Both the position numbers and the translations under genes were made by a program. The notes under the pieces are model-generated. The model did not search any database, was not told the DNA's origin, and was given only the letters and a program-made list of their open reading frames with translations. From Oscillospiraceae bacterium (GTDB lineage: Bacteria; Bacillota; Clostridia; Oscillospirales; Oscillospiraceae), in contig JAFSZQ010000037.1 of NCBI GenBank assembly GCA_017458885.1, positions 1-13,641 on the forward strand: 13,641 nt of DNA, given 5' to 3'. Positions within the stretch are counted from its first letter, which is position 1; each line of letters begins with the position of its first letter. Shown here piece by piece: positions 2,044 through 5,111 of this stretch.

Positions 2044-2073
2044 TTGACACTGCGCCATATATTGCGATAGAAT
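2044..2073 (+). promoter_or_regulatory. Sigma-A type promoter for the ribozyme-nagB-glmM operon
   Basis: A perfect -35 TTGACA (2044-2049) and -10 TAGAAT (2068-2073) are separated by 18 bases. Transcription should start near 2080, about 48 bases before the ribozyme cleavage site, giving the ribozyme a short 5' leader. Confidence 0.75.
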
Positions 2074-2113: not shown

Positions 2114-2127
2114 TTTGGAGAGCGGTT

Positions 2128-2258
2128 AGCGCCGGGCCCGACAAGTGGGTGACGAGGGGTGGCAGTTATCGAACCATTCGGCGGATTCTGCCACGGCAGG
2201 CGGCGGGTCGTCAAGGGGAGAGCAAAAAGCGGAATGAAAACCGTAACAGAGGCTCCCC
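2128..2258 (+). ncRNA. glmS ribozyme (glucosamine-6-phosphate-responsive self-cleaving riboswitch)
   Basis: The conserved core is present in order: AGCGCC (2128-2133), GACGAGG (2151-2157), ATCGA (2168-2172) and TTCGGCGGAT (2178-2187), matching known Bacillus and Thermoanaerobacter glmS ribozymes. Cleavage should fall between A2128 and G2129. The expected helices can be drawn: a short P1 (2136-2139 with 2147-2150), P2.1 (2159-2165 with 2188-2194), P3 starting near 2195, P4 (GGGGAG 2215-2220 with CTCCCC 2253-2258) and P4.1 (2230-2232 with 2241-2243), with the usual GCAAAA and ACAGAG joining segments. In this class GlcN6P acts as cofactor for self-cleavage, and the cleaved mRNA is degraded, so the downstream operon should be switched off when GlcN6P is plentiful. 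The next gene is nagB, not glmS. Confidence 0.93.
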
Positions 2259-2284
2259 GAACGCCGCGACTATTTTGATGATAC

Positions 2285-2298
2285 GGCGCTTTTGCGCC
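2285..2298 (+). other. Small hairpin before the nagB ribosome site
   Basis: GGCGC-TTTT-GCGCC folds into a 5-bp hairpin ending two bases before the AAGGAG ribosome site of nagB. It may keep the site open or be a remnant; no T-run follows, so it is not a terminator. Confidence 0.35.
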
Positions 2299-2310
2299 AA
2301 AGGAGCCTAT

Positions 2311-3102
2311 ATGAGAGTCGTTATTCAGGAGAATTACGAGAACATGAGCCTGTGGGCGGCGCGCTACATCGCGGGCAGGATCAACGCGCACAAGGAGCCG
2401 CGCCCCTTCGTGCTGGGGCTGCCGACGGGGTCGTCCCCCATCGGCGTGTACAAAGAGCTCGCGCGCATGAACAAGGCGGGCGAGGTGTCGTTCGCGAACG
2501 TCGTGACGTTCAACATGGACGAGTACGTGGGGCTGCCGCACGAGCACGACCAGAGCTACTGGTACTTCATGCACGACAACTTCTTCGACCATCTCGTCGA
2601 CATGAAGCCGGAGAACATCAACATCCTCAACGGCATGGCGAGCGATCCCGAAGCCGAGTGCGCGCGCTACGAGGCGAAGATCGCGTCCTACGGCGGCATC
2701 GACCTCTTCATGGGCGGCATCGGCGTGGACGGGCACATCGCGTTCAACGAGCCGTTCACGAGCCTCGCGTCCCGCACGGGGCTGCGCGCGCTGACGACCG
2801 ACACGCGCATCGTCAACAGCCGCTTCTTCGGGAACGATCCCGAAAAAGTCCCCGCCTACGCGCTCTCCGTCGGCGTCGGCACGGTGACGGATTCCAAGGA
2901 AGTCCTCATCCTCATCAACGGGCACAACAAGGCGCGCGCGCTCGCCGCGACGGTGGAGGGCAGCGTCAGCCACAAGTGGACGTGCAGCGCGCTCCAGATG
3001 CACAACGGCGCGATCATCGCCTGCGACGAGGCGGCGTGCGGCGAGCTGACCGTGGACACTTACAAGTATTTCCTCGACATCGAGAAGAAGGAGAGGCTGT
3101 AA
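2311..3102 (+). CDS. nagB: Glucosamine-6-phosphate deaminase/isomerase, possibly acting in the synthetic direction
   Basis: 263 residues, the usual length for NagB. The enzyme interconverts glucosamine-6-phosphate with fructose-6-phosphate plus ammonia in the cytoplasm. Visible active-site motifs: [12 protein letters not shown] for phosphate binding (35-47), FNMDEYVGL with catalytic Asp70, and [14 protein letters not shown] with Asp140, His142 and Glu147 (E. coli Asp72, Asp141, His143, Glu148). The start at 2311 has AAGGAG five bases before it; an in-frame ATG at 2149 lies inside the ribozyme and is rejected. It is the first gene of a tight operon with a GlcN1P acetyltransferase-like gene (3-base gap) and glmM, behind a glmS ribozyme. 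Family knowledge says NagB is usually catabolic. The context here suggests instead ammonia-dependent GlcN6P synthesis; this direction is inferred, not shown. Confidence 0.93.
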
Positions 3103-3105
3103 GCG

Positions 3106-3765
3106 ATGGTCACGATCCAAGAGCTTTTCGACCTCGACCACACGCTCGCAAAGGACTATCTCGCGCGGTTCACCTACCCGTGGGAGGCGCTCAAGGGCAT
3201 CAAGGACTTCATCCTCGCCCTCGGCCCCACGCTGGGGGAGGAGTACGAGGAGGTCAGCGAGCACGTCTGGGTACATAAGACGGCAAAGGTCTTTCCGAGC
3301 GCCTACCTCGGCGCGCCGTGCATCATCGGGGCGAACACCGAGGTGCGCCACTGCGCGTTTATCCGCGGCAGCGCGCTCGTCGGCGCGGACTGCGTGGTGG
3401 GCAACAGCGTGGAGCTGAAGAACGTCATCCTCTTCGACCACGTCCAGACCCCGCATTACAACTACGTCGGGGACAGCATCCTCGGCTACTACAGCCACAT
3501 GGGCGCGGGCAGCATCACGTCCAACGTCAAGTCCGACAAGCAGCTTGTCGTCGTGCGCGACGGCGCGGAGCGCGTGGAGACGGGCATCAAGAAGTTCGGC
3601 GCGATGCTCGGCGACCACGTCGAGGTCGGCTGCAACGCGGTGTGCAACCCGGGCACGGTCATCGGGCGGCGCAGCAGCGTGTATCCCACGTCCTGCGTGC
3701 GCGGCGTCGTGCCCGCGGACAGCATTTGGAAGGACGACGGCACGGTCGTCCAAAGGAGGGCGTAA
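3106..3765 (+). CDS. GlmU C-terminal-like hexapeptide acetyltransferase, probable glucosamine-1-phosphate N-acetyltransferase
   Basis: 219 residues. After a roughly 50-residue helical N-terminus the protein is a left-handed beta-helix built of hexapeptide repeats (for example LGAPCIIGANTEV and LVGADCVVGNSV, about 65-105). The segment HYNYVGDSILGYYSHMGAGSIT (split here as residues 117-138) aligns with the acetyltransferase active site of GlmU, placing His117 at the catalytic E. coli His363 and keeping the Tyr-x-Gly-Asp that follows. The GlmU uridylyltransferase half, with its LAAGxGTRM signature, is absent. Such proteins are often loosely named UDP-N-acetylglucosamine pyrophosphorylase, but without that domain only acetylation (GlcN1P to GlcNAc1P with acetyl-CoA) is plausible. 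It lies between nagB and glmM, overlapping the glmM start by one base. Another sugar acyl acceptor remains possible. Confidence 0.8.
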   Translation: MVTIQELFDLDHTLAKDYLARFTYPWEALKGIKDFILALGPTLGEEYEEVSEHVWVHKTAKVFPSAYLGAPCIIGANTEVRHCAFIRGSALVGADCVVGNSVELKNVILFDHVQTPHYNYVGDSILGYYSHMGAGSITSNVKSDKQLVVVRDGAERVETGIKKFGAMLGDHVEVGCNAVCNPGTVIGRRSSVYPTSCVRGVVPADSIWKDDGTVVQRRA

Positions 3766-5111
3766 TGGGCAAGTATTTCGGCACCGACGGGTTCCGCGGC
3801 GAGGCGAACCAAAGCCTGACCTTCGACCACGCGATCAAGATCGGGCGCTTCCTCGGCTGGTACTACGGCGCGAACCAGGGCAAAAAGGCGAAGGTCGTCA
3901 TCGGCAAGGACACGCGCCGCTCCAGCTATCTATTCGAGTACGCGCTGTGCACGGGGCTCATGGCGAGCGGCGCGGACGCCTACATCATGCACGTCACGAC
4001 CACGCCGTCCGTCGCTTACATCACGCGCGTGGACGACTTCGACTGCGGCATCATGATCTCCGCGTCGCACAACCCGTTCTACGACAACGGCATCAAGCTG
4101 CTCAACGGGCAGGGCGAGAAGATGGACGAGGAGACCATTCTCAAGGTCGAGGACTACATCGACGGCAAGCTGGAGATCCCCATCGCGCAGCGGGCGGAGA
4201 TCGGGCGCACCGTGGACTACGTCGCGGGGCGCAACCGCTACATCGGGCATCTCATCTCGATGTCCAAGTACAGCTTCAAGGACGTGAAGGTGGGCTTGGA
4301 CGTGGCGAACGGCGCGGCGTGGCAGATCGCCAAGGCGGTCTTCGACGCGCTCGGCGCGAAGACCTACGTGATGAACGACGCGCCCGACGGCTACAACATC
4401 AACACCGACTGCGGCTCCACGCACATCGAGCATTTGCAGAAGTTCGTCGTGGACAATCAGCTCGACGTGGGCTTTGCCTACGACGGCGACGCCGACCGCT
4501 GCCTCTGCGTGGACGAGAAGGGCGGCGTCGTCACCGGCGACCATATCCTCTACGTCTACGGGCTTTACATGAAGGAGCGCGGTAAGCTGCTCAACAACAC
4601 GGTCGTGACGACCGTGATGAGCAACTTCGGGCTTTACAAGGCGCTCGACAAGGCCGGCATCGGCTACGAAAAGACCAAGGTCGGCGACAAGTACGTCTAT
4701 GAGAATATGGTGCAGAACGGCCACCGCATCGGCGGCGAGCAGTCGGGACACATCATTTTCTCGAAGTACGAGACCACGGGCGACGGCATCCTCACCAGCC
4801 TCAAGATGATGGAGGTGCTGCTCGCGAAAAAGAAGCCGATGAGCGAGCTTGCCGCGCCTGTCGTGTTCTACCCGCAGGTCTTGAAGAACGTCCGCGTCAA
4901 GAGCAAACCCGACGCGCAGAACGACCCCGACGTTCAGGCGGCGGTGAAAAAGGTCGCGGACGCGCTCGGCGACGAGGGGCGCATCCTCGTGCGCGAATCC
5001 GGCACGGAGCCGGTCATCCGCGTGATGGTCGAGGCGGGCAGCGACGCCGTCTGCGAGAAGTATGTGGACGAGGTCGTCGCGGTCATCCGGGCAAAGGGAC
5101 ACATGGCGTAA
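3765..5111 (+). CDS. glmM: Phosphoglucosamine mutase
   Basis: 448 residues, the standard GlmM length. It converts GlcN6P to GlcN1P on the way to UDP-GlcNAc, peptidoglycan and other envelope sugars. The start MGKYFGTDGFRG is typical of GlmM. ISASHNPFYDNGIK carries the phosphorylated Ser101; DGDADRC (240-246) binds Mg; GGEQSGH (323-329) contacts the sugar; and RESGTEPVIRVM (410-421) is the phosphate-binding loop. The ATG overlaps the previous stop as TAATG, with GGAGG six bases upstream, so translation is coupled. The frame is open back to 3318 but that part is the shadow of the acetyltransferase gene. With nagB and the beta-helix acetyltransferase it supplies three consecutive steps from fructose-6-phosphate to GlcNAc1P, if NagB runs in reverse. 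A strong terminator follows. Confidence 0.95.
   Translation: MGKYFGTDGFRGEANQSLTFDHAIKIGRFLGWYYGANQGKKAKVVIGKDTRRSSYLFEYALCTGLMASGADAYIMHVTTTPSVAYITRVDDFDCGIMISASHNPFYDNGIKLLNGQGEKMDEETILKVEDYIDGKLEIPIAQRAEIGRTVDYVAGRNRYIGHLISMSKYSFKDVKVGLDVANGAAWQIAKAVFDALGAKTYVMNDAPDGYNINTDCGSTHIEHLQKFVVDNQLDVGFAYDGDADRCLCVDEKGGVVTGDHILYVYGLYMKERGKLLNNTVVTTVMSNFGLYKALDKAGIGYEKTKVGDKYVYENMVQNGHRIGGEQSGHIIFSKYETTGDGILTSLKMMEVLLAKKKPMSELAAPVVFYPQVLKNVRVKSKPDAQNDPDVQAAVKKVADALGDEGRILVRESGTEPVIRVMVEAGSDAVCEKYVDEVVAVIRAKGHMA

Follow-up and report, generated by a model that had tools for sequence, protein, structure and literature searches.

The ribozyme and the operon in the window

The window is the whole stretch of 13,641 nucleotides of Oscillospiraceae DNA that was analysed. 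Within it, a glmS-class ribozyme lies behind a promoter-like site and in front of nagB, LbH and glmM. The features of the locus are as follows.

2044-2073, plus strand: sigma-70-type promoter TTGACA-18-TAGAAT, 11 of 12 consensus matches, upstream of the ribozyme
2117-2269, plus strand: glmS-class self-cleaving ribozyme, nagB-linked subtype (RF00234; our own model R1)
2128-2133, plus strand: AGCGCC with the expected cleavage site 2128/2129
2151-2157, plus strand: GACGAGG core element
2160-2193, plus strand: helix 2160-2165/2188-2193 around ATCGA...TTCGGCGGAT (100% of cells paired, double changes in 3 of 6 pairs)
2168-2172, plus strand: ATCGA core block
2177-2186, plus strand: TTCGGCGGAT core block
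2215-2258, plus strand: P4/P4.1 domain, pairing 2215-2220 with 2253-2258 and 2229-2232 with 2241-2244
2285-2298, plus strand: small hairpin GGCGC-TTTT-GCGCC, just before the ribosome-binding site
2299-2305, plus strand: AAAGGAG, likely ribosome-binding site of nagB
2311-3102, plus strand: nagB, annotated glucosamine-6-phosphate deaminase, proposed ammonia-dependent GlcN6P synthase (TIGR00502, PF01182, residues)
3106-3765, plus strand: LbH, left-handed beta-helix acetyltransferase, like the C-terminal half of GlmU (TIGR03992 Arch_glmU; hexapeptide repeats)
3765-5111, plus strand: glmM, phosphoglucosamine mutase (TIGR01455, 529.8 bits, cut-off 447.55)

RF00234 (glmS) was the sole Rfam match in the whole window (cmscan, 4227 families, gathering thresholds). 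The match was full length (model 1-167) and covered 2117-2268 of the plus strand at 49.5 bits (gathering cut-off 37, E 3.8e-9). The preliminary description had recognised a glmS ribozyme by its core blocks and had proposed this covariance search; the blocks were in place and the match stood above the gathering score. R1, a covariance model built from 20 nagB-linked ribozymes, scored 146.9 bits at 2117-2269, with the window as one of its own training rows. The conserved core of the RF00234 class (AGCGCC, GACGAGG, ATCGA, UUCGGCGGAU) is present, and the cut at 2128/2129 is presumed from the known class. The window copy shares with RF00234 the core blocks, the helices, the covariance score, the expected cut before GCGCC and the place in a 5' leader behind a promoter. 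It differs in leading nagB-LbH-glmM rather than glmS, so that the usual context directly upstream of glmS, which is customary and not defining, is absent.

The first downstream gene is an intact nagB, as had been described: its product scored 378.8 bits against the TIGR00502 equivalog (cut-off 236.9) and holds D72, D141, H143, E148, R172 and K208 (E. coli numbering). RNA and protein belong to known families, RF00234 and TIGR00502; it is the wiring that varies. LbH starts after a gap of 3 bases and overlaps glmM by one base. It aligns to positions 215-393 of TIGR03992 Arch_glmU with 141.9 bits, below the full-length cut-off of 292.1. GlmU is marked by an N-terminal uridylyltransferase and a C-terminal acetyltransferase; LbH matches only the C half and falls under the GlmU cut-offs. 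The three genes stand for consecutive steps, in which NagB connects Fru6P and GlcN6P, GlmM converts GlcN6P into GlcN1P, and GlcN1P becomes GlcNAc1P. The acetylation activity of LbH is inferred from likeness.

The region 1900-2400 holds four promoter-like sites on both strands, against 0.3 expected. Judging from the promoter at 2044-2073, the transcript should start near 2080 with the ribozyme first. The preliminary description had considered a nagB promoter downstream of the ribozyme; no plus-strand promoter-like site was found between the two in the window. Of the 44 ribozyme loci collected below, 27 have a promoter-like site with at most 2 mismatches in the 110 nt ahead of the ribozyme, and 0 have one between the ribozyme and the first mapped gene. 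The contrast is not fully fair, since these gaps are mostly shorter than 110 nt; 11 of the 44 gave no candidate. Transcription of nagB from a promoter in the gap was accordingly rejected, with the proviso that many gaps are too short. By raw count, 24 of the 44 loci have a short perfect hairpin in the 45 nt that precede the first gene. On the minus strand, 1060-2003 encodes a NusG-domain-II protein and a protein like heptaprenyl diphosphate synthase component I. A promoter-like site for these genes (2003-1975) lies back to back with the ribozyme promoter.

Covariation and subtype of the ribozyme

Twenty nagB-type relatives were aligned, and these nagB-linked ribozymes align tightly with each other. 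AGCGCC, GACGAGG and UCGGCGG are invariant in the alignment, and the remaining core letters vary slightly. GCGCC and GGCGG, which would form the P2.1/P2.2 pseudoknots, are complementary and invariant in all 20 sequences, so these strands are unable to covary. Overall, 97.1% of the cells pair and 14 of 28 pairs are double-changed, a result reached by 0 of 500 shuffles. The pairing of P4 and P4.1 that had been described was seen here too, with 89.2% and 96.3% of cells paired and double changes in 6/6 and 2/4 pairs. The covariation value was 0.378, compared with 0.193 in shuffles and 0.08-0.11 when the structure was slid along the alignment. The shuffle control ignores kinship and the slid control retains it; the structure was taken from the Rfam alignment of the window and is thereby favoured over its slid versions. 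The count of further pair types did not exceed that of the shuffles (27 vs 27.5).

Compared with seven glmS-linked RF00234 copies of the family, the nagB-linked copies differ in the letters of P2, P3 and P4.1. They are best classed as a subtype of the glmS ribozyme and as no new class. A MAFFT alignment mixing glmS- and nagB-linked ribozymes misplaced AGCGCC, and no counts were drawn from it. The window ribozyme might also be an inactive relic, in line with its modest Rfam score of 49.5 and with the mismatched pairs that the RF00234 alignment shows in its P3a. The core is invariant and the helices covary among the 20 nagB-type sequences, which speaks against a relic, as do the promoter-like sites ahead of the ribozyme in 27 of 44 loci. 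We consider a relic extremely improbable.

Recurrence of the ribozyme upstream of nagB

A scan of genomes with the window NagB gave at least 586 relatives, of which the best 80 (72-91% identity) were kept. Nearly all of these 80 come from metagenome-assembled genomes, many from ruminant gut sites; 'Ruminococcaceae bacterium P7' is one apparent isolate. The genomes of these 80 relatives were scanned for RF00234 in two sets of 40, of which 31 and 10 gave a match. The match was over the gathering score in 40 of the 80 genomes, 37 of them in the nagB locus, where 38 relatives have a match in all. In the other three it lies outside the nagB locus, before glmS in G209 and G223 and without glmS in G226. 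Beyond the best 80 and the window, the arrangement was also found in G060, G004, G131, G090, G521 and G580. A one-off or a misassembly is ruled out by the 38 of the best 80 relatives together with these six further genomes.

The R1 model gave 44 hits in 92 sources, 20 of which are its own training rows. Its 38 places in the loci of the 80 relatives all coincide with RF00234 matches. We use 'clade' for NagBs set apart by an identity gap (72-91% vs at most 48%), not by monophyly in a tree. Of the 91 clade loci, 43 hold a ribozyme, and the other 48 are without one or are cut too short to tell. The ribozyme heads the gene run that contains nagB in 43 of the 43 clade loci with an R1 match. At L086, a glmS ends shortly upstream of the ribozyme.

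The preliminary description had held that this class is found almost only upstream of glmS, which proved partly right. Order-wide, R1 matched 88 of 394 genomes, and the best 30 of these 88 loci largely bear the statement out: 23 lead to glmS, 4 to nagB (including the window and G131) and 3 to no mapped gene. It holds less well within the family. In a draw of 150 family genomes, RF00234 was found in 16 (15 over the cut-off, strict-filter run), which with the window's own, missed by that run and detected in a separate one, makes 17 loci. Eleven lead to glmS, five to nagB (the window, G060, G090, G004 and G131) and one to glmM-LbH-nagB (G036), so that 6 of the 17 head a nagB run. Three loci cut by a contig end, L011, L157 and L170, were assigned by hand to nagB, glmS and glmS.

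Metagenome-assembled genomes labelled Flexilinea and Spirochaetales (L103, L083, L118) hold NagBs of the same clade at 82-89% identity. This suggests either transfer of NagB beyond Clostridia or mislabelled bins. In G036 (L058, 3989-7023), the ribozyme at the head of the run scored 48.2 bits with RF00234 and only 22.9 with R1. The NagB of G036 is only 35% identical to that of the window, and glmS lies elsewhere in the genome. G036 apparently holds an independent ribozyme-nagB operon.

Gene order and neighbours of nagB

Downstream of the 44 ribozymes, only nagB, LbH, glmM and glmS were mapped, and some runs are cut by contig ends (e.g., L051). The tabulation of downstream genes suggested in the preliminary description gave nagB as the first mapped gene in 35 of 44 loci, LbH in 7 and glmM in 2. 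The orders were nagB-LbH-glmM (23 loci), nagB alone (9), LbH-nagB-glmM (4), LbH-glmM-nagB (2), nagB-glmM (2), and nagB-LbH, glmM-nagB-glmS, LbH-nagB-glmM-glmS and glmM-LbH-nagB (1 each). The gene order is shuffled, while the membership and the leading ribozyme persist.

In 53 of the 91 clade loci, nagB has glmM, LbH or glmS no more than 1.5 kb away; nagA is that close in 1 of 91, some of these loci being cut by contig ends. Among 19 other NagBs of the family that were examined, nagA adjoins 8. Three of the 19 adjoin glmM and LbH, and NagB may, by this arrangement, have been recruited to the UDP-GlcNAc operon more than once. These other-type NagBs (L032, L034 and L046; in a wider set L177, L178 and L179) show 42-45% identity, and no R1 match was found at L032, L034 or L046. 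G148 (95% complete) has an other-type NagB beside glmM and LbH and no glmS over the cut-off.

These orders bear on the reading that NagB is a catabolic deaminase carried as a passenger, the ribozyme serving glmM and LbH. LbH or glmM does come first in 9 of the 44 loci, the ribozyme heads glmM-LbH-nagB in G036, and nagA is present elsewhere in many ribozyme-nagB genomes. The passenger reading fits poorly with nagB coming first in 35 of 44 loci, with the nine loci that have no LbH or glmM after nagB in the mapped run (L051 among them, cut by a contig end), and with nagA adjoining 1 of 91 clade nagB genes. A deaminase turned off at high substrate would also have the wrong sign. We regard a passenger NagB as quite improbable.

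Residues, type and phylogeny of NagB

D72, D141, H143, E148, R172 and K208, whose catalytic roles we take as given, are kept in 92 of 92 NagB rows. The GlcNAc6P-binding residues are listed as S151, R158, K160, Y121, D141, E148 and Y254 in the literature on the Giardia enzyme (PMC4281351). Y121, D141, E148 and Y254 are conserved throughout or with few exceptions. S151, R158 and K160 are replaced by T, G and R in 91 of 92 rows, the exception being the divergent NagB of L058. These replacements would fit an enzyme that is not run as a GlcNAc6P-activated deaminase; they are no proof of it. As a control, 19 other NagBs of the family were compared: 14 of them are without R158, and all 19 are without K160. 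Both are missing in 8 of the 8 nagA-linked NagBs of the family, and the altered allosteric site is therefore not diagnostic. Its loss was rejected as a mark of the clade because the other family NagBs are mostly without R158 and K160.

The window NagB, a long form, scored 335.7 bits to 1cd5 and 189.7 to 2bkv, presumably the E. coli and B. subtilis structures. By these scores, the clade NagB is nearer to the E. coli hexameric type than to the B. subtilis type. It shares with the E. coli type the long form and all six catalytic residues. It differs in three of the seven GlcNAc6P-site residues (S151T, R158G, K160R) and in having glmM and LbH, not nagA, as neighbours.

In the NagB tree, 61 of 108 inner branches were open, and long branches meet. 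Rooted on E. coli, 20 other NagBs branch inside the clade on a branch of 2.43, which is likely an artefact. At least 13 changes are needed to place the ribozyme label on this tree.

Distribution of glmS and nagA

A glmS over the cut-off is present in 114 of the 150 family-draw genomes. G131 (100% complete, 1% contamination) and G004 (94%) both carry the ribozyme-nagB arrangement and gave no glmS match at E 0.001 and no nagA match. No glmS was found in the genome of the window either, which at 64% completeness carries little weight. Among the best 80 NagB relatives, glmS over the cut-off is held by 46 of 63 genomes of clade A, counting the broken copy of G192, and by 3 of 17 of clade B. Of the 17 clade A genomes without glmS, some hold a fragment: G180, where it scores 383 bits, and G202 and G209, where it lies at a contig end.

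Several glmS copies are in decay, and an assembly error is possible for any single case. In G521 (100% complete, ribozyme-nagB-LbH-glmM), a glmS-like stretch is split over three reading frames. The glmS of G192 has three in-frame stops and frame changes; its locus reads nagB-glmM-LbH, where no ribozyme was found. The glmS of G200 (ribozyme-LbH-glmM-nagB) has no match to the first 104 residues and shows frame changes. G164 holds one intact glmS and a second, broken copy.

A glmS over the cut-off is also present in 29 of the 38 relatives whose nagB locus has a ribozyme; the nine without include G180 with a fragment and G200 with the broken copy. G060 and G580 hold glmS over the cut-off too, and the isolate-like P7 holds two. 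A single RF00234 match was found per genome in 37 of the 38; G176 has another one, before glmS. In 28 of the 29 genomes, no ribozyme was found that belongs to glmS itself. In G197 and G207, glmS stands at the end of the ribozyme-nagB run, which at L109 and L119 continues into glmS after at most 75 nt. A simple replacement of glmS was rejected, and the replacement claim was softened, because most ribozyme-nagB genomes keep glmS. A proposed link by which a genome without glmS has some NagB was also set aside: some NagB occurs in 14/16 near-complete genomes without glmS vs 45/80 with it (Fisher p 0.024), which makes it weak, uncorrected for kinship and with the glmS fragment of G030 counted as glmS in this family-draw test.

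The strongest rival to a synthetic NagB is a reversible valve beside GlmS. NagB would run in both directions as set by ammonia and GlcN6P, the ribozyme would set the amounts of NagB, LbH and GlmM, and GlmS would cover low ammonia, much as glutamate dehydrogenase may be pictured beside glutamine synthetase/GOGAT. The 29 of 38 genomes with glmS agree with a valve, as do L109 and L119 and the nagA that passes its cut-off in the genome of the window and in 22 of 37 others searched. It leaves unexplained G131 and G004, with neither glmS nor nagA, and the broken glmS of G521, G192 and G200, where synthesis is the more evident need. A valve is, in our judgement, unlikely.

Two clade B genomes, G215 (L127) and G220 (L132), encode a protein of 366-369 aa that matches the C-terminal (isomerase) half of GlmS with 190 and 178 bits and lacks the glutaminase half. 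This protein may be a further GlcN6P deaminase or synthase, a possible alternative enzyme for the GlcN6P step.

In G226 (L173, 6732-6886, minus strand), a glmS-type ribozyme and the stop codon of glmM, in LbH-glmM, overlap. Behind this ribozyme come a hairpin that ends in a T run and a convergent gene that, judged by its letters, resembles purL. No glmS match was found in this clade B genome, and the ribozyme looks like a scar of a lost glmS. In G285, G313 and G246 (L147, L148 and L151; one genus; 98-100% complete), a glmS-type ribozyme (R1 92-101 bits) lies at about 1501-1660, the loci being turned so that it reads on the plus strand. It sits between convergent genes with a hairpin downstream. 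No glmS, nagB or glmM was found within 1.5 kb, and glmS lies elsewhere. In two of the three, the flanking genes are 4-alpha-glucanotransferase-like and CAAX-protease-like (named from their letters). Our reading is an orphan or 3' UTR ribozyme.

Probable direction of NagB and proposed control by the ribozyme

A self-destruct triggered by GlcN6P would be positive feedback on an enzyme that consumes GlcN6P and product control on one that forms it, which favours synthesis. This sign of control, the operon, and the genomes without another visible source of GlcN6P lead us to favour synthesis. We think it probable that NagB, in the GlmS slot of a UDP-GlcNAc operon, is an ammonia-dependent GlcN6P synthase and that the ribozyme provides product feedback. 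The preliminary description expected the pairing to tell of the enzyme's direction or of a new wiring of amino-sugar control. The UDP-GlcNAc operon, the absent or broken glmS of several genomes and the ribozyme at the head of 43 of 43 loci support this. The recurrent LbH/glmM architecture had not been foreseen, and the exchange is not a clean swap, most genomes keeping glmS.

In the proposed scheme, NagB would form GlcN6P from fructose-6-phosphate and free ammonia, GlmM would convert GlcN6P into GlcN1P, and LbH would acetylate GlcN1P to GlcNAc1P. Plentiful GlcN6P would enter the ribozyme as cofactor, and the leader would be cut at 2128/2129. The cut would lead to destruction of the nagB-LbH-glmM message; RNase J is the enzyme that degrades the cleaved glmS message. 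This would be ordinary product feedback, moved from glmS to a substitute nagB. GlcN6P riboswitches are described as repressing downstream glmS genes (PMC2258182), and cleaved glmS message is described as degraded by RNases (PMC11477304).

Anabolic NagB has been described for Giardia and Entamoeba (PMC4281351). According to that report, the Giardia lamblia NagB is efficient at forming GlcN6P out of Fru6P and ammonia, and it is insensitive to GlcNAc6P. GlcN6P synthesis from Fru6P and ammonia is what we propose for the clade; the amination was measured for the Giardia enzyme and is only inferred for the clade (PMC4281351). Giardia differs in being a eukaryote whose NagB is induced at encystment, and the excerpts of the report used here mention no ribozyme (PMC4281351). 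The Giardia NagB also keeps the counterparts of Ser151 and Arg158, unlike the clade (PMC4281351), so its insensitivity to GlcNAc6P has other causes.

Against the synthase reading stand the 29 of 38 genomes with glmS, the nagA in the window's genome, and the NagB of Akkermansia muciniphila. For the latter, Km values of 41 mM for NH4 and 5.5 mM for Fru6P are given, and its authors judged amination at physiological levels unlikely (PMC5902328). Gut ammonium can reach the Km of 41 mM, and Fru6P is the obstacle (PMC5902328). Akkermansia muciniphila shares the lack of glmS with the glmS-less genomes seen here, and its NagB is reported as not activated by GlcNAc6P; it differs in requiring GlcNAc or GalNAc from the medium (PMC5902328). 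The allosteric-site control and the proteins of G215 and G220 that resemble the C half of GlmS slightly lowered our estimate of the synthase reading and of the broader picture given below, and slightly raised that of two rivals.

In the literature searched, no report of a glmS ribozyme ahead of nagB was found, and an earlier mention is possible. PMC7967978, PMC6171935 and PMC8307235 mention both the glmS ribozyme and nagB, and the excerpts used here do not place the ribozyme before nagB.

Genomes with an intact glmS are found next to others where it is broken or missing, which suggested a reading of GlmS displacement. We lean slightly towards this broader picture, in which a large clade of ammonia-driven GlcN6P synthases with the NagB fold, present in Clostridia of the ruminant gut, has spread between lineages, is displacing GlmS and has its own glmS-ribozyme subtype as a feedback switch. 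If this is true, the glmS ribozyme class tells in which direction an enzyme commonly listed as catabolic works, and 'glucosamine-6-phosphate deaminase' labels assigned automatically in gut genomes of this kind could be read the other way round. GlcN6P mimics have been studied as activators of the glmS ribozyme (PMC11477304); in these bacteria their effect would fall on a different enzyme. At its first step, cell-wall sugar synthesis would draw on free ammonia in place of glutamine. The supply of cell-wall precursors would then be tied to free ammonia, and these bacteria would offer a testable case of an anabolic bacterial NagB.
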